The translations under genes were made by a program, and so were the position numbers. 64,000 bases of DNA from contig JAECYW010000001.1 of NCBI GenBank assembly GCA_023014335.1, positions 3,162,001 through 3,226,000 on the forward strand. The letters run 5' to 3'. Under the pieces are notes generated by a model. That model saw nothing but the letters and a program-made list of their open reading frames with translations, was not told where the DNA came from and did not search any database. The DNA is from Galerina marginata. Lineage: Eukaryota; Basidiomycota; Agaricomycetes; Agaricales; Galerinaceae. Shown here one piece after another: positions 4,926 through 55,956 of this stretch (position 1 is the stretch's first letter; every line of letters begins with the position of its first letter).

Positions 4926-6335
4926 ATGGCGTCCTCAGGAGGTCTCTCTCGCCGGCGCGTTGGCGCAGCCGCCTCATCATCATCGTACAACGACGAGGAC
5001 GACAACACACCGCGCGTCGCGAATGGGCACTCGGCCGACGGCAGCAGGAGCAACACTCCGCCGTCTGCGCAGCACGCGGGTTCTGCGTTCGAAGGCGGGA
5101 GCAAGATTGCGTTCGATCCTCGGGATTTGCAGCAGGATGCTGGCGAAGAGGCGAGGGTTGGAGGGAAGATGCCCCGTTTGACTATCATGGAGGAGGTTCT
5201 GCTGCTGGGGATTAAGGATAAGCAAGTACGTTTCCTTCTTTCGTGGAATTTCACGACCTGGAGGGCATGAATTACTCGTCAACAACGTCTTTCTTGCTCA
5301 GCAACCATGAACGATGTCCAGTCACTGATATGCTGTCGTACAGGGCTATCTATCATTTTGGAACGACAACATATCCTATGCCCTCAGAGGGTGTATTCTC
5401 ATTGAACTTGCCATGCGAAGACGCATAGCCCTTGTAAAAGACCCAAACCGGCGACGGATACCCGTCACCGAACGAATTGTGGAAGTGATAGACGATCGAC
5501 AAACAGGGGAGACAATACTAGATGAGGCGCTGAAGATGATCAAGTCCCAACAAGACATTGAGAAGCTGAGCATTAATGCCTGGATCGACCTAATGAGCGG
5601 TACGTTGTGCTCCCCACCCCTGCCAGTCGTTTTCCCCGTCTCTTGTCCTGGTCGTTCGACCTCTTCATTCCAACCCCATCACCCACTGAACTCATGCATC
5701 CTATAGGAGAAACATGGAACGTCATGAAGATCGGGTTCCAGCTCAAACAAGTCCGCGAGCGACTCGCCAAAGGCCTCGTCGACAAAGGCGTCCTGCGCAC
5801 CGAGAAGCGCAACTTCCTGCTCTTCGACATGGCCACACACCCCGTCGCCGACGCACGCACGAAAGAGTCCATCGTCAACCGCGTCGTCACCCTCCTCACG
5901 TCGACAACCTCCGCCGTGCCCCCCGCCGCGCTCGACAAGGAGGGCGTGCAGTGCCGCGTGCTGCGCGCCGTGTGTCTCGTGTGCGCCGCGTACACCGCGA
6001 GCGTGCTGGACAACGCTTTTGGACGGCTCGGGTATGAGGAGCGCGAGGCGGCGTTCCAGCGCTGCGATGAGATTCTGGGCGAGTTCGTGTGCTGGCCGTA
6101 TGGCTCGGCGGGGATGAGCACTAATGGGCCGATGACGCCTGCTACGGCGGCGGGGCGGAGAAGACAGGCGACGCGGCTGGCTAGTGGCGGTGGTCTGGAG
6201 GTCAGTGGGCGGGAAGTGGTTCTTGGGCTGGTTCAGGAGGTCCGGAAAGAGACGGTGGGTGGGGACGAGGACGTAGGCTTTGAGTTGATCGCTGGTGTGC
6301 TGGAGGTGTTGTCCAAGCTCGACTCGCTGCTCTGA
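4926..6335 (+). CDS. VPS74: GOLPH3/Vps74 family phosphatidylinositol-4-phosphate-binding Golgi protein
   Basis: Exons 4926-5225, 5344-5599 and 5707-6335 join to 394 residues. Residues 1-80 are Ser/Asn-rich and disordered. The GPP34 domain starts at RLTIMEEVLLLGIKDKQGYL and continues through SFWNDNISYALRGCILIELA, RRIPVTERIVEVID, TGETILDEALKMIK, LSINAWIDLMSGETW, QLKQVRERLAKGLVDKGVLR and KRNFLLFDMATHP. In yeast and animals this family binds PI4P on the Golgi and the cytosolic tails of glycosyltransferases, packing them into COPI vesicles so that they stay in the Golgi. The W of SFWND and the R of ALRG match the conserved PI4P-binding pocket positions as I know the family. A Thr/Ala/Arg-rich insertion (about residues 315-345) near the C-terminus is longer than in yeast Vps74. 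Confidence 0.95.
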
Positions 6336-42462: not shown

Positions 42463-42669
42463 AGCTTGTTGATAGTAGGATTTAGGATTTAGTATATAGT
42501 AAGTAGCTTTATCTGCCTTTATTTACGGTTACCGGTAAATCACATCATAAATACCGGCAAATGCCTCAGCAGGGATTCTGATACGCGGCAGGATTCCCCT
42601 CAATCCCAGTTGAATCCCTCCAATCCATCAGGCTACCCTTCCTCCATTTCACGCCGCCTCATTGTCGCG

Positions 42670-42700
42670 CGTCCTTCACTCGTCCTTCACTCGTCCTTCA
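42670..42700. repeat. short tandem repeat, 11-bp unit
   Basis: The unit CGTCCTTCACT is repeated almost three times in a row. A simple microsatellite-like slippage product. Confidence 0.7.
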
Positions 42701-42909
42701 ACCCCACTCCGCCCTTCACTGTCGTATTCCCCTCCTCAAACGGACGATAGACTTACACGTCTTTCCCGCGGCAGTCCGAATCACACATATGGCGTTCAGT
42801 GCCCTCGCCTTCACCCTTTTCGCATTCCACGGTGGGGTATTGAGCTCACGCTGGGTGTAGGATGTTCGTCGAGACCGGGGGTCAAGGTAGCTCAGTATTA
42901 GTTCTCGTT

Positions 42910-43510
42910 CATGTCAAAAACTTGCTTACCTCGTTGTGTCTAGCAGCATTGTATGTCCACATTGCCGCTTCAATGTCCCACCTTGGTGTTGTCAACGTTG
43001 AAGAAATTTTTGCAAATGACAAGGTAAGTATCAGCTCATATTGGCACTGAATGCTACTCACCTCGTCTCCAGCGCCTTCCCAACCGTCTGAATCACCAGA
43101 GCCCGGCTCCACCGTTGAGCCTGTACTTTCTGGCCTGCAGCTGAACCTGTGATCGGGAAGCGGAAAAAGGTGGTACATAACGCGGATGAGCATGCTAGAG
43201 GCGGGCGGGCACGTCAGCGACGGACGGCTGGAATGTTCGGCGGGTGTGCAACATTTGTTGAAAGCAGAGGAGCTGCCAAATCCAACATGGGTCAGTCTCG
43301 ATTTTTGGCATTTGCTCGTGTCAATAACTTACTTACCTCGTTTCTAGAAGCCCTATACAACGACGTTGCAAGTTCAAAAGTTCCACGTTGAGTTGTCGAT
43401 GTTCCGCTTTGGGCAACTCAACATTAATGGCATTCCACCAACGAAAAGGTAGGTGTCAACTTATCATCAGTTTTGAATGCTGCTCACCTTATTTGCACCT
43501 TCCCAAGCAT
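42910..43510 (+). repeat. two diverged copies of an exon-intron block
   Basis: Two stretches about 400 bp apart share the same layout. Each has 'acttrcttacctcgtt..ctag' as an acceptor, an open block of 80 or 101 nt (42944-43023 and 43348-43448) ending in AG, and a donor (GTAAGTATCA / GTAGGTGTCA). Each is then followed by a similar 50-nt intron-like sequence (..tgaatgcTactcacct../..tgaatgctgctcacct..) and 'cttccca'. Read in phase, the blocks give CMSTLPLQCPTLVLSTL and PYTTTLQVQKFHVELSM. They look like duplicated exons of an unknown, probably dead gene, possibly an older relative of the array units that follow. Confidence 0.5.
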
Positions 43511-44532
43511 TGCCTGACACCTGGACAACATTTCGCCACCGGCCTAGTGCTACCACCCATTGCCAGACTCAGCTCAACCCTTCAGCCCTGCAACCTCGAC
43601 TATGAAGCACTACTACAATCTCTCCTCAAACGTGACTCTGAGAATTTTTATGGGAGGGAGAACCATGGGATTGCGGCGCGCCTGAGATGAGCCAGAGGTG
43701 GATCATATCCGACAGGTACCAGTATGAATGGAATCTTGTATCTAGTCACTCGGTCACTGTTTAGAGTATAATGTCCTTGTACGACAATGGCTTAAAATAA
43801 GATAATTTTAGTTGATTTGCAATTCCTGGGATTCAAAGCACACTGGATCCTGAGCGCTGAGCTTTGGAGATGGCCACCAGCACCAGCAAAGCCTCAGTGT
43901 TTCTTACGAGCATTTACAATTGTCGGTAGTATTACCTTAAATTTGAAATCCGAAGAGATTTACAACCTGGTACCATCAGTGTGATCGGTTTCCTTGCTGG
44001 GGTGCTTTACAAATGATGCGCACAGGCCAGGCCATTTACGATTTTTACGATTTTTACCGTAAAATTAAATAGACATCCACTTTCCTTCACTTTCCTCTGC
44101 CATTGTGGGTGCTTACTCGTGCAAAAATCATGTATTTCATTTACCAAAAGGCGAATTCCTGAGTTTCAAGCCTGAAAATTTTGCTGTACATTGCTTGTAT
44201 CTATTATAACATTCCTACAAAACATGGAGGAAAATTGTTGACTCTGAGTCATGCAAATGCTTGAGCGGACATCTAGCGGGAGGCTGAGCTGGCCGAAATG
44301 GGCAGGTGCCGGTCCGGAAAAGGAAATTAGGAATCAACAAACGCCGTGGGGGAAAAAGTTGGTATTGGTTCTCTCCTCTTCCCGCCCACATCCTGGAACC
44401 TCCTCTTTCCGCTCATCTTCAACACCATCTGTCTTGTAGGCTCAATAGCCATAATCTTCTTCAGCTTCAAACATTGGGATGCCTTTGTGATCATTGCAAT
44501 ACATGGATGCCAAGACTCGGAGTGGTGTACCC

Positions 44533-47528
44533 GGTAGGTCTATCAATTATCCACTGTTCCTGATTATTCTGGTCTTAAATAAAACACTTATAGGCCCTAC
44601 TTAAGACTCTCTTGAGATGACAGTCATCTCTCCATTCTTTCTTGTGGAAATTGAACATTTGCCAGCAGAGGGGGAAATCAGAGAGATCTGTGTGTAAGCC
44701 TGTCAAATATCAACCGATTTCAACGATACTGGACTCAAATGAAACACTTATAGGTACTATTTAAGACTGCATTGAAACGACAGCCATCTCTCTGTTCGTT
44801 CTTGTGGAAATTGAGCATTTGCGGGCAGAGGAGGGAATTAGAGAGCCATGTGTGTAAGTCTGTCAAATTTCAACATGATTTCATGATTCTGGATTCAAAT
44901 GAATTGCTTTTAGGTCCCGCTTAACACTGCGTTGAGACGACAAGGCTCGCTCCGCTCGTTCTTTTCGAAATCGGGGCATTTGTGGGCAGGGAGGAAATTT
45001 GGGGGGATCCATGTAAGTCTGTCAATTCTCAACCTCTTTTTATGATTCTGGGCTTAAAGGAAACGCTTATAGGCCCCGCTTAAGACTACGTTGAGACGAC
45101 AGGCCTCGCTCCGTTCGTTCTTGTCAAAATCAGGGTATTTGTTGGCAGGGAGGAAAATTGGGGGGATCCATGTAAGTCTGTCAATTCTCAACCTCTTTTT
45201 ATGATTCTGGGCTTAAAGGAAACGCTTATAGGCCCCGCTTAAGACTACGTTGAGACGACAGGCCTCGCTCCGTTCGTTCTTGTCAAAATCAGGGTATTTG
45301 TTGGCAGGGAGGAAAATTGGGGGGATCCACGTAAGTCTGTCAATTCTCAACCTCTTTTTATGATTCTGGGCTTAAAGGAAACGCTTATAGGCCCCGCTTA
45401 AGACTACGTTGAGACGACAGGCCTCGCTCCGTTCGTTCTTTTCGAAATCGGGGTATTTGTGGGCAGGGAGGAAATTTTGGGGGATCCACGTAAGTCCGTC
45501 AATTCTCAACTTCTTTTTACAATTCTGGGTTTAAAGGAAACGCTTATAGGCCCCGCTTAAGACTACGTTGAAACGACAGGCCTCGCTCCGTTCGTTCTTG
45601 TCAAAATCAGGGTATTTGTTGGCAGGGAGGAAAATCGGGGGTTATCTATGTAAGTCCATCAAATCTCAACTGCTTTGTATGATTCTGGGCTTAAAGGAAA
45701 CACTTATAGGCCCTGTTTACGACTACGTTGAGATGGCAGGCCTCGCTCTGTTCGTTCTTGTCGAAATTGGGTATTTGTTGGCAGGGAGGAAAATTGGGGG
45801 TGATCCGTGTAAGTCCATCAAATCTCAACTGCTTTCTATGATTGTGGGCTTAAAAAAAACATCTATAGGTCTTATTTAAAGCTACGCTCAGACAACAGCC
45901 ATATCTCCCTTTATTCTTGTCGAAATTGAGGATTTGTGAGCAGGGAGGAATATTAGGAGGATCCATGTAAGTCCGTCTGATTTCAATCCTATTTCATGAT
46001 TCTGGACTCAAATAAAACACTCATAGGTACTATTTGAAACTATGCACACAATAAAACTGTTCATAGTCTTAACCCTCTCATGACCCAGCATGAACTGACA
46101 GCGGCGGGCCTGAATCTGAAGTTGCCCTTTGAGTAAGCTGCTGTCTCATCGCGCCTTCATCGTCCTCTTGCTGATGTCACATTTATTTAGGCAGACTGTA
46201 AGAAGAACTGGAGTAGTTGCCGTTGCAGCCAAGTTGCTGCCTTGATTGAGGTATCATGCATGGTCCTCACCTTGTTCAGCAGCTGGAGGATGTGGAGTCA
46301 GCAGACATGGCTGTAAGTCCATCAAATTCTAACCGCGCTTCATGATTCTGGACTCAAATAAAACACTCATAGGTCCTATTTATTACTACGTTGAGACGAC
46401 AGCTGTCGCTCTGCCATAACTGTGGAAATTAATTACCTGCATGCAGGAGGAGAAATGGGAGATAATCCACGTAAGTCACTCATATTTCAATGATGTTCTG
46501 TGACTCTGGATTGAAATGAAACATCCATAGGCCCCATTTAAGATTGCATCGAGACGACAGCTGTCGTCTCGTCTGTTCTTGTGGAAATTGAGTTTCCGCA
46601 GGCAGAGGGCAGATTGGAGACCACCTTGTAAGTCCATCAAATTTCAACCACTTTTCGCGATCCTTGACTTAAACGAAACACTCATAAGCTCTACTTAAAA
46701 CCATGTTAAGACGACAGTCGCTGCTCCATTCGTTCTTCTGAAAATTGAGTATTCGCAGGCAGGGGGGGAATTGGAGAGAATTCCGTATGTCTGTCAAATT
46801 TCAACTGCGTTTCGCGATGCCGGACTCAAACAAAACATTTATAGTGCCCTTACTTCCTTAAGACAACAGTCGTTGCTCTGTTCATTCCAATGGAGATTGA
46901 GTATTCGTGCACAGGGGGGAAAATGGGAGAGAATCTATGTAAGTCTGTCAATTCTCAACTGCTTTTCATGATTCTGGGCTTAAAAAAAGTGTCCATTTGT
47001 CCTACTTAAGAATGCCTTAAGACAACAGCTGTTGCTCCATTTGTTCTTCTTGAAATCGATTGCAGGCAGGGAGGGGGGATTGGAGAGCATCCCGTAAGTC
47101 TGTCAAATTTTAACCGCGTTTTACGATTATGGACTCAAATGAAACATTCATAGGTCCTATTTGTCACTATGCTGAGACGACAGCTGTCGTCTCGTTCGTT
47201 CTTGTGGAAATTGAGTTTGTGCAGGCAGAGGGGGAAATCGGAGACCACCTTGTAAGTCCATCAAATTCCAACCGATTTTTGCAATCCTGGGTTTAAACAA
47301 AACATCCATAGGTCCTGTTCAAGACTGCGTCAAACGAGAATTATCACTCTGGTTGTGCTTGTGGAATTTGAGTCTTTGCGGTCTGAGGAGAAATTAGAGA
47401 TCTAAGTGTAAGTCCGTTAAATTTCAATCACTTTTCGCAATCCTGGACTTAAATGAAACACCCATAGGTTCTTCTTAAAACCATGTTAAGACGACAGTTG
47501 TCGCTCTGTTTGTTCTGCAGAAACAAAT
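44533..47528 (+). repeat. tandem array of about eighteen 159-bp exon-intron-like units
   Basis: Units start at a splice-donor-like GTAAGTC at 44533 (GTAGGTC), 44694, 44854, 45013, 45172, 45331, 45490, 45650, 45809, 45967, 46313, 46471, 46628, 46785 (GTATGTC), 46939, 47094, 47252 and 47408. In each, about 60 nt from donor to a TATAG/CATAG acceptor is followed by an exon-like block of about 99 nt. The block is open in one phase in most of the left units (LRRQASLRSFLSKSGYLLAG is a typical part). Units at 45013-45490 are nearly identical to each other, so they amplified recently; right-hand units are diverged. The first unit and several right-hand units carry stops or frame shifts, and the unit at 45967 is disrupted by about 190 bp of unrelated sequence. 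No complete gene can be assembled. Confidence 0.85.
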
Positions 47529-47773
47529 GTGAGTCACATCTCATCCGTCTCTTTGAAAGCTAGATGTACTAATTTATTTATATTGATAATTAGAGATATA
47601 CATTTATGAATTAGATACCCTAGGTATATATACAACTGAGATTTCTTATCCATCGTAGCAGTCATATTCGTCTTGAGGGGTATTTCCCAATTCATCAGTA
47701 AATTTGCTTCCGTTCCACCTTCGGCTGGCAACGGGGGTGGGCATATCATGCGCTTCACTCACCGCTCATTACC

Positions 47774-50300
47774 ATGCCCAAGGCCCCTCCGGCAACAACT
47801 AAAGCAAAGAGGCGGGTTGCCCCTGCTGCTACTCTGGCAGAGCTTCGCCAAATTCAAGCCAAGGGGAAGGAGACATTCCTCAAAGCCGGAAACACTTCGA
47901 GCAAGTATATGGAGATGGTTACTGCTGGCCGTAAATGGCTTGCTGGTCATTTTGCCAGAGCAAACTCGGGCAGAGAGTGCACTAACGAGGAGCAAGATGC
48001 TGGTGCTGACGAAGATCCAGATCCTGACTTTGGGTTATCTGGAGACTTGTCTGACGACGAACCACAGGATTCATTCAAAGATCCCGAATTTGCGAGGGCT
48101 TTCGACGATATACCCAATGTTTTCTCGGACAAAGCACTGGCCCTTTACATTTCATTCAAGTGTATTCACCAAAATCTGAAGGCAGGGACAGGTGCAAGTA
48201 TTCGTGCTGCCTTCAAGCACCTCTGGGACCAAGTGTATGTTCTTTACTCACTGCTCAGTAATTGATGATTAGCTAAATCTTGTCACTAGTGATGGGAGCA
48301 CCTTTCGCGATAAATGGCAGTTCAATTCCCAAAATAAGCGATGGGAAGGAAACCCTGTTAAGTCAGCGGAAGTTGAAGATGTGATGACCAGTGTGAAGCA
48401 TAAAGGTGGTGCAGGAGGAGGTGATCGCACACATTCAGCCGCGATGTCCAAGGAGTATATGGAAAAGATGTTCAACTGGTCCGAATCTGTTTGCGACACA
48501 GATAGTCCATCACCTGCCCGAAATATGGAGGAACGCACCTTAAAAACCAAGCACCTTGAATTCAAGGCCTTTTCGTCAACCGGTTGGACAATATGGGCTC
48601 GGTATGATTCTGAAATATCATCTTTTGCACACCTTATTCAAATGACTCAATATTTTTAGTTGTTTCGAGATGGTCAAGCTGAAGAAGCGCCATCTTATCC
48701 TTAATGTTTCTGATCCCAGAGTCTCGTTTGGCGCAAAGCATCACATTCTGCATTTGATAGACAGGAAGGGATGGCAGCGAAAGCTGAGCAAAACACAGCA
48801 TGAGACTGATCTTCGAAGTAAATCCTCCTTTTTCGAGTCTTTCCTGTTCCAAATATCTGATGAGAAAAATAATGCCAGGTAATTTATTCAATATCTATTC
48901 ACAGCCAGACCTCCCTGCTTGCGACTCTTTCCACTGGTTGAATCAATGGGTTACATTTCTAGAGAAAGAGCACTACAAACGGCCCCTCGAACCTGATGAC
49001 TACATCTTTCCTGCGATGGGCGCTAATGGGATCATTCAGCCGCGAGAACCAATCTCGCACGACACCGTCCAGAAATACATTAACGAATTCACATCGGCGG
49101 CCGGCCTCTCGCATATGAGCCTCAGTTTCTCTACCCATTGCTTTCGTAGAGGTGGAGCCCAATATCGTTTCATGTTTGCCCCAGTTGCGAAGCGCTGGAA
49201 TTTACGCAAGACACGGTGGTGGGGAGGATGGGCTGAAGGTGAACAGGTAAGCTGCAATTTACATTGTGAGTGCTATAGCCATGATAACGATGTCTTGCAG
49301 CGTGATACTCTCATGCGTTACCTTCTGGATGAGCTCTCTTCATATGAGGAGGATTACTCTAATGCATTGGCTCCAGAACAAACCGAAATGAATGTCTCGT
49401 TTATGGGTGGACATCATTCGGTTGCTCCGGTTACGAATGAAGCTCTCCACCTTGTACATAATCACCTCTCTGACCAGATACAGAATGCCAAGGCTGAGCT
49501 AAAGAACGATGTGATTTGTGTAGTCACGGAGCTGTTCGCTGCTGCCCAACTGGGACAGGTACCACCAGGTCATGGTAAGGAATTTGAGTCCTCAGTTGTC
49601 TTTGTGTCTTAAACTAATATGTACAATTTTTTTTATTAACATTAGTGGGTGTAAGTCCGGCTACCAATTCAACTTCAAGTTGTACGATTGCAAATCCAGC
49701 CCAAGTTTTGTCAGCCACATCTACAACTCCGAGTCTGCGATTCACTGCCCGTGCCTCAACTCGCGAAATCATTCCAATTCCATTGGTTGGCCCAGCAGGC
49801 TCACCCCTAGTCCTGCACGCACACCGTAATCAGCAAATTCAATCGAGCGGAAAGAAGTCCGGTACGCCACTGCCTACGAAAGGCCTTGTTATTCCAGACA
49901 TCCCAGTCAAGAATGCGGATGGAACTCACCCTCCGCCATCGGAGTCATGGCGCTGGATTGTAAAACACTGGTCAGAGGGTGATCCAGAGCGAGGACTTGA
50001 TGTTCCGCTGAAAGATTGGCCAAACGAGTGGTTGCAAGGCCCTAACCGACAGCTTTTTGCCTCCAAAAGAAATCAACGGCGGATGATCGCAACCGAGTTT
50101 CTTAATTAGTACGTGGTTCTCAACTCACTGTCCTTGTTCAAGTTTGACTCAAAAAACTCTATAGTTATGCTCAAGATGAAGCGCGGTTCCTTGAAGCATA
50201 TCCCGTTGCAAATCTAGGACATTCGCAATTATTTAAAGCCATCGAAACGGCGCGAAAGGAACGTGGGGAAATAGCAGCAAGGCCTCGAAATAAGCATTGA
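47774..50300 (+). CDS. Crypton-like tyrosine recombinase with GCR1_C-type C-terminus
   Basis: Seven exons (47774-48234, 48290-48601, 48660-48817, 48879-49246, 49301-49574, 49646-50108 and 50165-50300) join in phase to 723 residues without a stop. Tyrosine-recombinase catalytic residues line up: R258 with E261 (ARCFEMVKL), a Lys candidate K302 (SKTQHE), H397-x-x-R400 (THCFRRGGAQ), W424/W428 (WWGGWAEGE) and Y440 (TLMRYLLDEL). The C-terminal part (SWRWIVKHWSEGDP, PLKDWPNEWLQGPNR, then RRMIATEFLNYYAQDEARFL) resembles the GCR1_C DNA-binding module found in fungal Cryptons. Cryptons move as circular DNA by recombination and leave no terminal inverted repeats. The reading frame is intact, so it is either a young copy or a domesticated gene. 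It lies 245 bp after the 159-bp array. Confidence 0.8.
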
Positions 50301-50493
50301 CATATTCATTTCCTGTCCCTTTGTTAGTCCTGGCTGTAGTGATCAACAATTACATTATGTTCCATCTTAATGACCCAAAGACCTGAGATAAATACCCTCG
50401 AACATCCCCAAATATTAAGACATTAACATATATATTCACAAAACTACTTTTATTGACAGTGCTATATAGATTGCTTTCGTACCTCATTGCCAC

Positions 50494-51297
50494 TCAGCAG
50501 TACCCAAAACCCGGTGCCCACCATGTACTGCTTCCTAACCGGAAAGTGAAATGAGTGCACTGACACTCAGTGGCAGGACAAGCCCAGCGGTACAAACGCG
50601 GGTACAAGTATCGTACCCGCGTTCTTGCACCTGTCATTGAGAACGTGAGCAACAAAGAAAGATCTCATAAAAGAAGCGACAGCTCTCACCAATTCTCAAG
50701 GGCACCGCGGAGGGCCGCCGGGCGATCTCGCAGAAACAGCGGACATCCAGAGAGTGCCCGCACCTGAGCACCACAAAGGACAACGGGCCAAAGGGATGGA
50801 ACGGGGCATGGCACCGCACACAACGCATATTCGGCGACAGCGTGTCGCGGTGGTCGTCGTTGTCCAGAGGGTCGTTGTCCAGAGGGTCGTCCATGAAATG
50901 TGGCAAGGCTGGGAAAGGGGGAGAGAAGTGTGTTCGGGCAGAGACTCTGTCCCAGTTTGTGAGGTCCTCGATAGGACGGCGCAGGTCCAGCTCGTCGCTG
51001 TTAGCAACGGCACGGATATCTGGTTCAGACTCGGCTGAACGAGGGCGAGGGTCCACCCAGACCTGGAAAGGAGGAGGAGAGAGGCCTGCAGCACGAGCAG
51101 GAGGTGGCCGAGGAGCAACACGACGGGGTACTGGAGCTTGAATGATCATGACGGGTGGTGGGCGAGTGTACTCGTCGTGAGCACTGCCGATGTCGTAGGG
51201 GAGCTCTGTGTTAATTTGAAAAGGCCGCAATAAATGAGCCTCGGAATCTTGGCACAACATGCAGTACAAGGCACTCACCTAGTCTCGTTGGCTGCAT
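50494..51297 (-). CDS. RING-finger-like protein
   Basis: Three exons on the minus strand (51297-51279, 51205-50690 and 50630-50494) join in phase to 223 residues, starting MQPTRLELPYDIG. The middle is Pro/Arg-rich (PPPVMIIQAPVPRRVAPRPP) with an acidic repeat (DDPLDNDPLDNDD). The C-terminal half carries a zinc-binding pattern: C-x2-C (MRCVRCHAP), LRCGHSLDVRCFCE and, only after the second intron is removed, WACPATECQCTHF. This is a RING-type C-x2-C...C-x-H...C...C-x3-C layout, with unusual spacing in the last pair. RING proteins usually act as E3 ubiquitin ligases; ligase activity here is inferred. The first exon is only 19 nt of coding sequence. Confidence 0.75.
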
Positions 51298-51790
51298 TTC
51301 CAGTCGTCGTTTGCAGGTTGCAAGTTGCAAGGTGGGAGCAAAGGTGTGTGGAAGAGAGGAGCCTGAGGGGAGACGTTATCGTCGTCTTCGCCACACCCCA
51401 GAGACAGGAAGGGTGCGGAGACCGATGGGCGGCTCCATAGAGCCAGCGATCGAATGTCTTGAGTCGCGCCAAGGGAGGTGGAGAGAGAGGACGTGGACGG
51501 AGGGAGGGACTCAGAGTAGAGAGCCTGTCACGGTCCACCGCGACGCGACCGAAAAGAGTGAGTGAGAGCTGGTTTGTTGGCTCGCGGAGCCCGAAAACAC
51601 AGCCGAGAGGGGCGAGTGATTGGGATTCCGCTAAAGGCGCCGAGGCGGCCACGATCGGACCCGGAAAGGAAATTGATCGGATGAGTCAGCCATCTGGCGG
51701 GCAGCCCCCGTAAATATCTCAGAGTAAGTTAATACACAGGTCTGATTTTGTTCCAAACGTGAACACTTATGATGTCACAAAGTAGGCGCA

Positions 51791-51806: not shown

Positions 51807-51852
51807 TTGCCCAAAAAATCTGGCTACACAGCCAGACCCTCGGATGCGTTTG

Positions 51853-51898
51853 GCGCAAAAGGGGTAATTTGCAACTGACGCAAATAGCCCTTTTGCGC
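51853..51898. repeat. inverted repeat with 11-bp perfect arms
   Basis: GCGCAAAAGGG (51853-51863) and its exact reverse complement CCCTTTTGCGC (51888-51898) are separated by 24 bases. It lies 47 bases from the CRE-like palindrome. It could be a regulatory structure or an end of a small mobile element. Confidence 0.6.
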
Positions 51899-52788
51899 TG
51901 TGTTTATAGCCGTGTTGAGCCCGAATCAAATCTTGCGTTTTTGCGTCCAGGTTAAACCACTGGATGCACCTAGTTTAAAATTGCCAAATTTCAAGCCCAA
52001 CACAACTTTTATCTGCGTGAAAGATATGGTAACCATGTGCCAAGTATATTCGGAGACTGATTATGAAGTTCAACATCCGAGTACGGTAATTCTTGCACTT
52101 CAACAAACTTTCTCTCCAACCACCACCATCACGGCTCTCCTCGCGCCTTCCCTCTGAATTTCTCTTACTCCCTGCATCTAGTATTATTGACGAGCATGAT
52201 ATTGCGAAGAAGCGTCTTCGGGAGCTGGATTGTGATCAGACCTGTATCCCTGATTGCCCGTTTGTGGGCACCATGTTGAATGGCACAATCCCCCTTCGTC
52301 TTCATGTCAATCATGTCTGTGTTGTTGGCTGACCTCCTTTTCCTCTAGGTTTCTGATATTTCTCATCCCGGTGAGCTCACCCATCAAAATTTATCTTCAT
52401 GCACCCTACTCACTGATATTTAGGAGCCCTCATTGCGATCTGCTGGTGGTTCTGGCGTTACTAGGAGTAGATTTGTTGGCACAACTTTCAGTATTCTGAA
52501 GGTACTCTGTAATTGTTGGTATTCTTGCACTGTACATGTTCAATATACATGTTTCCCCCCCTTAATATGCATTGTAAATACTAAAGCCTGGAGTGAGTTT
52601 GAGAACCCAAACGGAAACGGGAATGAACCGGATTAGGAAGCTTCGGATACCTGTGTTGCCGGAAGCCGACCTTTGTCGCGGGCCCAAACGGAAGATGCAC
52701 CAGGTGCATAAAAATATGCGCCAGGCTTAACCCTCGGCTAATTTGCACCAGATCTCTCCCACCGTTCTTAACACTTGTGCAAAATCTA

Positions 52789-53499: not shown

Positions 53500-55956
53500 A
53501 TGACAACGACCGCCATACGTGTAGCAGTCTTGACTGGTGAGATATTCTGATTCTCTACGGGCAACCCTCTGATGACTTGGATTGCACATTTAGTGAGTGA
53601 CACTGCGTTTTCGGATCCAAGCGCAGATAAGTCTGGCCCGACTATAAGGGAAATTATCAAGCTTCGCCCTTCCTATGAAGTACTGGACGAACACCATCGC
53701 ATCGTCCCAGACGATAGCTCGATTATCCGAAACGTTGCTGAGGAATGGTGCAATTCTGGTTTAGTAGATTGGCTGATAACGACCGGTGGAACGGGATTTG
53801 GTGTGAGGGATGTTACACCCGAAGTAGGTGGTTATTACTCTCAGCTTATCTGGAATTTAACCTACAACAATCTAGGCTATAACACCCCTCATCGAGCGTC
53901 CAGCACCTGGTCTCGTCCATCTCATGCTAACCACGTCTCTCGAGAAAACCCCGTTTGCTGCGCTTGCGCGCCCTGTAGCCGGTACTATCAAAGGTACATT
54001 AGTAACGACCCTTCCGGGGAGCGTCAAGGCTGTGAAAGAAAATCTGGATGCTTTGTTCCAAGGCGGAGTCCTGGACCATGCAATCGACCTACTCAAAGGA
54101 GGATCGGGAAAACAACTGCATACTAAACTCTCAGAGACGTCCCCGGCGGGTACTTCTCATGACCATGGGCACCACCATCACCACCACCATGGTCATCACC
54201 AGCCAAAGCCTAGATCTCAAGCAGCTTTATCGCATGACCCCTCTGCTTCTGGTAAGATTTTCTGAAAGATTGTATGCCAGCCATTCTTACCGCTTCTTAG
54301 TTTCGGCTCGTCATAGAAAATCGCCGTTTCCCCAGATATCTTTGGATGCCGCTCTTGTTCTAATAAGAGAAAATATTAAACGGCTCCCTATCCAAACTTT
54401 ACCGGTTTGTTCGCACCTGGAAAATCCGTGCGTTTTCCATCTAATTCTATCCTTTAGGTGGATCACAAATTGGGTGGACACATCCTTGCCCAAAATGTGT
54501 ATGCCCCCAAAGACGTGCCATTCACCTCGACCACAAGTGTCGATGGATATGCACTTAGGTGTCAGTGACAATATCCTTTCTTAAAACCGCCCACCTAGTA
54601 ACTCTGTCTTAAGCTTCTGATCCTCCCGGAATATATAACGTCGTAACTGCTCAAACTCACGACCTTTCATCCCCTCTTCCAGAAGGCTCCATTTACCGCA
54701 TCAACACCGGAGGACCGCTCCCTGCAGGCGCAGATACAATTATCATGGTTGAGGACACCGAATTGGTTTCAACCTTCGAGGACGAGCCAGGCGTCACCGC
54801 CGAAGAAAAGGAGGTGAGGATCCTTGTTCAAGTTCCACCGGGAGACAACGTACGCGCGCCTGGATCAGATGTACGACAAGGCCAACTGGTGATGTCGGCT
54901 GGTGACCGAGTGACCAGGGGCGGAGGGGAAGTGGGCACTTTGACTTTCGTTGGGCGAAAGGAGGTGGGGTTTACTTCGCCATTGGCCCAAAAATTTGCGC
55001 ACTCAACTGGTTCAGGTCAATGTTTTCAAAAAGCCTGTTGTCGCTATCATGAGCACAGGCAACGAGCTCATCGATTTGAAGGACACTTCGCACGAGCATG
55101 CTAAACCGACTGACGGATGGGGCGGTATTTATGATACTAACCGCCCATCATTGCGGGCGCTTCTAGAGAGTATGGGCTATAGCGTCATTGACCTCGGAAT
55201 CGTACGTGACGAGTGGGTACCGGCGTGCTTACTATGTGGCGTTCATTGAATGTGCCCTAGCATAACTGCCCACGTCTCCGCTCTTCAAAAGGGATTGCAC
55301 GAGGCCGACCTGATACTCACTACGGGAGGAACCTCGATGGGCCCTACCGATCTCCTCAAGCCTGTGATCGAACGATATCTCGACGGTGTCGTCCATTTCG
55401 GTAGAGTCAGTGTCAAACCCGGTAAACCTACCACTTTTGCCAGCGTTCCTTATCAACATGGGGAAAGCACTATCCGCAAGCCAATTTTCGCTCTTCCTGG
55501 CAATCCAGCCTCTGCCTTGGTCACCTTCTACGTGTTCGTCGTTCCTGCGCTGAGGAGGATGGGTGGATATCCCGAAAATTTGTGTGAATTACCGAAGGTC
55601 ATGGTTCAGGTGGCGTCCTCACATTTTTACATGAGGAGGGCCTTGCTGAGCTCGACGAATATTTGACACAGATCCAAAACTCGATGCCACTAGACCCCCG
55701 CACAGAATTCCATCGGGTTGTTATCAAGAGCTCTTTCGAAGATGGGGAAGGTGGGTCTGGAATGGTACTGAAAGCTTACAGCACTGGCGGGCAAAGATCA
55801 AGCCGCGTTGCGAGCTTGTGTGAAGCCAACGGCCTCGTGATACTCCCTCCCTTACCTCCCCCCGATCAGGAAGCTCCCTCGGCGTCGACGAAAACGAGAT
55901 TGGAAGAGGGAGAATTCGCACGTGCTGTCGTGATTGGAGAGATCGAAATGGCTTGA
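53500..55956 (+). CDS. molybdopterin adenylyltransferase / molybdopterin molybdotransferase fusion (gephyrin/Cnx1 type)
   Basis: Nine exons (53500-53536, 53594-53823, 53876-54251, 54301-54404, 54458-54560, 54614-54963, 55016-55212, 55261-55609 and 55672-55956) join in phase to 676 residues. The N-terminal MogA/G domain has LTVSDTAFSDPSADKSGP, LITTGGTGFGVRDVTPEA and TLPGSVKAVKENL. A linker near residues 183-200 is very His-rich (SHDHGHHHHHHHGHH). The C-terminal MoeA/E domain has VPFTSTTSVDGYAL, INTGGPLPAGADTIIMVEDT, VVAIMSTGNELID, LTTGGTSMGPTDLLKPVIER and FALPGNPASALVTF. Together they adenylate molybdopterin and insert molybdate, finishing the molybdenum cofactor used by nitrate reductase, sulfite oxidase and xanthine dehydrogenase. 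Domain order MogA-MoeA is as in fungal CnxE and animal gephyrin, the reverse of plant Cnx1. Confidence 0.95.

Follow-up and report, generated by a model that had tools for sequence, protein, structure and literature searches.

A tandem array of intron-like units lies inside a transposon-like element of the Galerina marginata genome, upstream of a tyrosine-recombinase-like gene. What is constrained in it are splice signals, most strongly the donor, and not a protein. No tandem-intron leader in a recombinase transposon was found in the literature (open-licence PMC papers). The explanation that fits best, to which we give about an even chance, is that the array forms an untranslated multi-intron leader of the recombinase mRNA and has grown by tandem duplication.

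The window, the whole stretch of 64,000 nucleotides that was analysed, corresponds to C1:3162001-3226000 of a genome of 69.3 Mb in 43 contigs. The features are summarized in Table 1. TRF and a unit HMM confirm the tandem array described in the sequence-only reading and resolve 18 units at a spacing of 154-160 bp. The array is divided by a non-repeat segment of 267 bp (46046-46312). TRF describes the younger part as 159 bp x 9.2 copies with 84% matches (44566-46027) and the older part as about 157 bp x 6.0-7.7 copies with 68%, ending at 47516. The unit HMM places the donors of the first block at 44534, 44694, 44854, 45013, 45172, 45331, 45490, 45650, 45809 and 45967, and those of the second at 46313, 46471, 46628, 46785, 46939, 47094, 47252 and 47408. 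Each window unit opens with a 5′ splice-site-like hexamer, with the donor GT present in 18/18, and an AG is situated at intron positions 57-62 in 17/18. The intron is exactly 60 nt long in 39 of the 46 TAG-bearing units, the C13b copy counted. The description of the unit as one exon plus one intron is thus borne out for the intron and for an exon-like block, with the splice signals as the slowest-changing parts, while the exon does not look coding. The proposed branch-like TTCAAC is present but lies about 40 nt before the acceptor; CTTAAA or CTCAAA, about 15 nt before the AG, is better placed.

Table 1. Features of the array, its element and the adjacent gene (window coordinates)
Feature	Coordinates	Strand	Basis
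Dispersed transposon-like element containing the array, about 9.2 kb	42522..51713	+	homology to C13a, C4a, C13b, C4b
CT-rich stretch to the first donor, possible promoter or first leader exon (inferred)	44360..44533	+	aligns in C4a, C13a, C4b
Array block 1, ten units, the last one incomplete	44534..46045	+	TRF; unit HMM
Example 60-nt intron-like module, GTAAGT...TATAG	45013..45072	+	unit positions
Example exon-like spacer, 99 nt	45073..45171	+	unit positions
Non-repeat segment, 267 bp, separating the array blocks	46046..46312	+	78% identity to C4a 5877-6157
Predicted canonical intron in the unique segment, GTAAGC...CTGAT...TTTAG	46133..46190	+	donor and acceptor kept in C4a
Array block 2, eight older units	46313..47528	+	TRF; unit HMM; 72% identity to C4b array
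Predicted last leader intron, GTGAGT...AACTGAG...GTAG	47529..47658	+	before recombinase start codon
Tyrosine-recombinase-like gene, several exons, HCFRRGGAQYRF...WWGGWAEGE...RYLLDEL	47774..50109	+	Phage_integrase, homologues, dN/dS, tblastn of homologues

Among the youngest copies (45013-45490), which had been described as almost identical, a single difference in 159 sites separates units 45013 and 45172. Unit 45331 differs from these two at 7 and 6 sites, respectively, all in its 3′ half, which resembles the 3′ half of unit 44854. Together these relations point to unequal exchange or slippage as the way in which units are exchanged and multiplied.

The array was found at at least six places, namely the window and the loci C10, C4a, C4b, C13a and C13b, with 9-18 units per locus. 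C13a and C13b are inverted duplicates, and C13b was left out of the counts unless stated; the two copies (L012 C13:944000-953900, L013 C13:727300-737200), about 216 kb apart on one contig, are 99.8% and 99.6% identical in two long pieces. The homology between the window and C13a extends over 42522-46045 (81%) and 47607-51713 (82%), that to C4a comes in four pieces, and that to C13b and C4b is partial. Because flanks are shared as well, the array is internal to a dispersed transposon-like element, a context that the sequence-only reading had not recognized. A free satellite independent of a mobile element was rejected on the same ground, the element flanks being shared by the window, C4a and C13a and partly by C13b and C4b. 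The sequence common to the window and C13a begins with TTTACGG and ends with CCGTAA, a 6-bp inverted match recognized by eye; the left end is uncertain by 24 bp, since the window and C4a share 24 further bases on that side (from 42498). Just right of the element, 51825-52500 is 99% identical to C2:320233-320908. An ORF on the minus strand inside the element (50637-51278) gives a weak RING-finger-like match (E 0.044), below the cut-off.

C4a and C13a align without a break through the upstream flank and the array (86.6% over 2144 columns), and the array probably predates the spread of the element copies. The counterpart of 46046-46312 in C4a sits downstream of one single array block, and C13a and C13b retain just the last ~80 bases of this segment. 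The order is rearranged in C4b, where sequence resembling the unique leader segment (GAGTAAGCTGCCG) precedes the array (L011 vs L032, about 2910 on the reverse complement). The divergence between the window and C13a is 5-6% in the left 1.5 kb and 5-15% right of 50007; the array and the recombinase gene over its first half diverge by 15-31%. This suggests that the element is a mosaic, which looks like the result of exchange between diverged elements. With C10, nothing is shared beyond the array and some 55 bp ahead of it; the CT-rich stretch 44360-44533 is matched there only close to the first donor. No recombinase match was found on the C10 contig although the array is present there, which counts against the leader reading.

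The start codon of the recombinase gene at 47774 was chosen from the ORF, and the 3′ end of the gene lies at about 50109. The Pfam matches of the gene are weak: Phage_integrase at E 0.0021 (18.3 bits, below the cut-off of 27.1) and DUF3435 at E 0.041 (13.3 bits, cut-off 25.8). The homologues number 169, of which 120 are listed, and the named ones among these come mostly from fungi that we take to be agaricomycetes. Four of the 120 listed are named Tyr recombinase domain-containing and one carries a precomputed PF00589. Six homologues compared with Pfam gave no match save one weak DUF3435 (E 0.0079, 15.6 bits). The block THCFRRGGAQYRF of the gene contains an HxxR motif, which we take to be typical of tyrosine recombinases. 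A sequence search of solved structures returned no recombinase, and the structure model of the homologue P0009 is of low confidence (pTM 0.29). The dN/dS values against C4a and C13a are 0.05-0.27, and the recombinase has therefore been selected for function. The C13a copy carries stops, and C4a is without the part matching 49057-49416. Synonymous differences from C4a and C13a amount to 0.57-0.65 in exons 1-2, whereas the C-terminal exon shows 0.14-0.24. Two related recombinase genes, at C42 and C12, lack an array within about 4 kb upstream (TRF; best hit of the unit model E 0.53), so this kind of recombinase does not as such require one.

The most variable columns of the unit are CpG sites, with a mean conservation of 0.68 vs 0.86 elsewhere, and conservation was therefore judged by parsimony steps with a CpG-aware expectation. 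GTAAGT took 8 steps over 59 units, fewer than any other window (mean of 47 CpG-free 6-base windows 35, s.d. 9.9); among non-overlapping windows, TCAAAT, CTTAAA, TCTCAA and TATAGG follow with 21-23 steps. The rate multiplier of the donor is 0.28 (p 1e-5; 0.001 over 154 windows). Those of the branch-like CTTAAA (0.57, p 0.014) and the TATAGG acceptor (0.65, p 0.04) would not survive correction. The intron body has a multiplier of 0.87 and the exon one of 1.05-1.32, i.e. exons change faster than introns. Two observations weigh on the other side: the acceptor G, with 6 steps, is as variable as the average column, against the splicing reading, and the intron body shows more conservation than splicing by itself would demand, against the leader reading.

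The GT is present in 56/59 units after realignment and in 53/59 in fixed register, all 53 fitting GTRNGY. Both donor and acceptor are present in fixed register in 17/18 units of the window, 11/11 of C10, 9/11 of C4a, 7/9 of C4b and 3/10 of C13a; the low count in C13a is partly a register effect, as GT is found in 8/10 of its units after realignment. The units had first been found with a model starting at the donor, and the repeat run was for this reason made with the donor masked. When the model was trained on the window and the other loci were read, GT appeared in 36 of 40 lettered hits (43 hits) with a GTAAGT identity of 0.954. With the acceptor masked, AG appeared in 33/39 (41 hits) with an identity of 0.906. 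Four control stretches at about the masked place gave 0.825-0.898, and the intron-internal one (0.898) nearly equals the acceptor. Hence the donor stands out in the masked test and the acceptor slightly.

The alternative that survives best is that the units are promoter or enhancer DNA repeats in the style of the mouse L1 5′ monomers, which would bind factors so that copy number sets recombinase transcription, the likeness to GTAAGT being incidental or one of several binding sites. The location of the array upstream of the ORF and the unit number that varies from 9 to 18 by locus agree with such a role, as does conservation over the whole unit, which includes exon-side blocks such as TGAGAC and GTTCTT. 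The promoters of mouse L1 are themselves tandem monomers of varying number, as described in the portions of PMC6454616 and PMC9022269 that treat them. Nevertheless, the slowest motif is exactly a 5′ splice site, with variants that stay within GTRNGY, an AG follows ~60 nt on in fixed register in 52/59 units, and two further canonical introns are predicted in the same leader. We consider promoter repeats unlikely.

A passive satellite would have originated where the element can spare sequence, travelled with the element and decayed neutrally, its conservation reflecting common descent and CpG decay. The concentration of variability at CpG sites and the neutral look of the exons are what such a history would produce. 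It leaves the donor outlier unexplained, which persists when expectations allow for CpG and when the donor is masked and read at held-out loci. Outside CpG, moreover, the arrays of the window and C13a differ by 0.13-0.28, below the synonymous 0.57-0.65 of exons 1-2 (vs C4a and C13a), a comparison that is weak and only indicative because the copies are mosaics. We judge neutral decay of this kind to be quite improbable.

The sequence-only reading had proposed that the array is a serially amplified coding exon that lengthens a protein by 33 residues per copy, in a phase-neutral unit of 33-codon blocks. The exon blocks of the window are 94-100 nt long rather than uniformly 99, with multiples of 3 in 6/16 measurable exons, and the unit is consequently not phase-neutral. 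Over 46 TAG units (C13b included) the lengths fall into the residues mod 3 as 19/16/11, and C10 has a run of five consecutive 100-nt exons. Across 58 unit rows, 57 exon indels were counted, shared ones once per row; 55 are frame-shifting, and 45 of these lie in the roughly 40 G-rich nucleotides at the 3′ end of the exon. Conservation by codon position is absent from the exon blocks (p 0.27; 0.74 outside CpG). An excess of synonymous changes among units, whose absence had been named beforehand as one observation that would speak against a coding array, is likewise absent: the unit tree carries 235 nonsynonymous to 127 synonymous changes, a ratio of 1.85 vs 2.04 in the neutral CpG-aware simulation (p 0.23). 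Translated units matched no protein at E <= 0.001 in the protein database (21 and 766 word-sharing candidates). C4a and C13a have not kept the ATG that immediately precedes the first donor in the window copy.

In favour of that proposal, one phase is open far more often than the others. The phase that starts at the acceptor is open in 26/42 TAG exon blocks, as compared with 5 and 4 for the other phases (C13b excluded). Whether stops are avoided in this phase is equivocal across three nulls. A plain neutral simulation gave 20.7 expected stop gains vs 7 observed, with 0/200 runs as low. A column-rate simulation gave 19.9 vs 8 observed (0/150), and this was the sole departing frame among 12. Conditioned on each column's own substitutions, 13.7 were expected and 12 observed (p 0.19). 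The ratio and stop-gain tests were run with rare-insertion columns removed, which flatters the frame. With C13b excluded, they used 55 of 58 unit rows, three gap-rich rows having been dropped. With mixed results on stops and negative ones in the other coding tests, an exon encoding some 33 residues per unit of a repetitive protein, perhaps only in an active ancestor, is not supported and appears very unlikely.

An untranslated leader with several introns was proposed because the recombinase ORF opens only after the predicted introns of the array, of the unique segment and of 47529-47658. In the last of these, the donor GTGAGT (47529) and the acceptor GTAG followed by C (47658) are kept in all four copies that retain the region (window, C4a, C13a and C4b), with AACTGAG, AACTGAT, AACTAAT or AACGGAG preceding the acceptor. 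A molybdenum cofactor gene is located nearby at 53551-55956 (+), with gephyrin-like domain order (MoCF_biosynth, MoeA_N). By eye, it has a 52-nt intron starting with GTAGGT, which indicates that 60 nt is an ordinary intron size here. Start codons are not avoided in the exons (19 ATG gains vs 18.1 simulated), which is mild evidence against a scanned leader; a raw count of 38 vs 81 had hinted at avoidance, and the simulation gave none.

The folds give a mixed picture of a possible RNA structure in the unit. Single-unit folds do not surpass shuffles, with a mean z of -0.07 over 52 units on the plus strand, with 6/52 below -2, and a mean z of +0.41 on the minus strand. The alignment fold of -2.07 is below all 60 column shuffles and consists of one six-pair helix, in which intron columns 4-9, starting inside the donor, pair with columns 37-42, just before the branch-like motif. 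This helix pairs in 93% of cells vs 4-51% when slid, and most variants keep pairing by wobble. Redealt 3′ letters pair equally well (mean 92.9%, 248/500 reaching the observed value), hence there is no covariation signal in the helix. The block GAGACGACAGCTGTCGTC forms a palindrome by eye in some units, and its apparent paired changes fall at CpG sites. Two Rfam matches were sub-threshold and taken as chance.

Among known systems, the nearest analogue in layout is the 5′-UTR of mouse L1, in which tandem promoter monomers, variable in number between copies, lie upstream of the ORF of a mobile element (as set out in parts of PMC6454616 and PMC9022269). L1 is a retrotransposon whose unit is a promoter, whereas the array here belongs to a DNA element of the recombinase type and preserves a splice donor better than any other motif. 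The nearest element class is the Crypton, for which the relevant sections of PMC3212892 describe a fungal host and a tyrosine-recombinase-like gene as the only clear gene. In contrast to Cryptons, for which these sections describe no array, the element here is about 9.2 kb long and no GCR1_C was found. The search for GCR1_C (CryptonF) in the C-terminal exon gave no match up to E 10, a search in which distant relatives may be missed. Cryptons are also marked by short direct repeats at their ends and a lack of terminal inverted repeats; the ends compared here show the 6-bp inverted match between TTTACGG and CCGTAA. A Starship with a DUF3435 captain was rejected, as DUF3435 stays below the cut-off in the gene (13.3 bits vs 25.8) and reaches 15.6 bits in 1/6 homologues.

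Introners resemble the array in that a short intron of spliceosomal type, its splice sites preserved, occurs in many similar copies; as portrayed in part of PMC9860276 they insert in many host genes, whereas the copies here follow one another head-to-tail within a single leader, each together with spacer exon sequence. An introner was rejected: all 24 zero-mismatch matches of a genome pattern search are inside these arrays, and an off-array family GTAAGTACATCAATTCTCAAC read at C7 (L069, C7:1676251-1676850) resembles just the first 43 of the 159 unit positions (9.3 bits). About nine near-matches of this dispersed pattern occur in the genome. It was also rejected as a founder gene, being unrelated beyond those first 43 bases at C7, the one place read. 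Intron gain by tandem genomic duplication likewise multiplies splice signals by tandem duplication; the account given in part of PMC4974935 concerns one duplication in a host gene, in contrast to the long array in a transposon here.

In the preferred explanation, that of an untranslated multi-intron leader, a tyrosine-recombinase-type DNA transposon would bear an intron-plus-spacer cassette, tandemly duplicated between the upstream region and the recombinase ORF. Transcription would start upstream of 44534, and the 60-nt introns would be removed singly or skipped as blocks. The last intron would link the leader to the exon with the recombinase start codon. The cassette may have grown via unequal exchange or slippage, and extra units would be tolerable because each brings its own donor, branch site and acceptor. 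That the array is transcribed and its units spliced is the probable meaning of their signals. Regulatory use of such a leader may lie in intron-dependent expression, in U1 recruitment or in the avoidance of splicing-coupled silencing. More tentatively, and as a possibility that we regard as doubtful, a selfish element might amplify a self-contained intron cassette in its leader. The number of introns, and not protein or promoter sequence, would then set the level of expression or protect the transcript against splicing-coupled silencing, the introns being selected and the exons free.

The pattern of selected introns and free exons is the reverse of that in an ordinary gene. If spliced, the array would offer a naturally graded set of near-identical introns within a single leader, from 9 to 18 units between loci, and a case of intron constraint with drifting exons. 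It would also provide a system for testing the effects of serial introns on expression and silencing in a basidiomycete, and it illustrates how introns can multiply through tandem duplication with no protein-coding exon involved.
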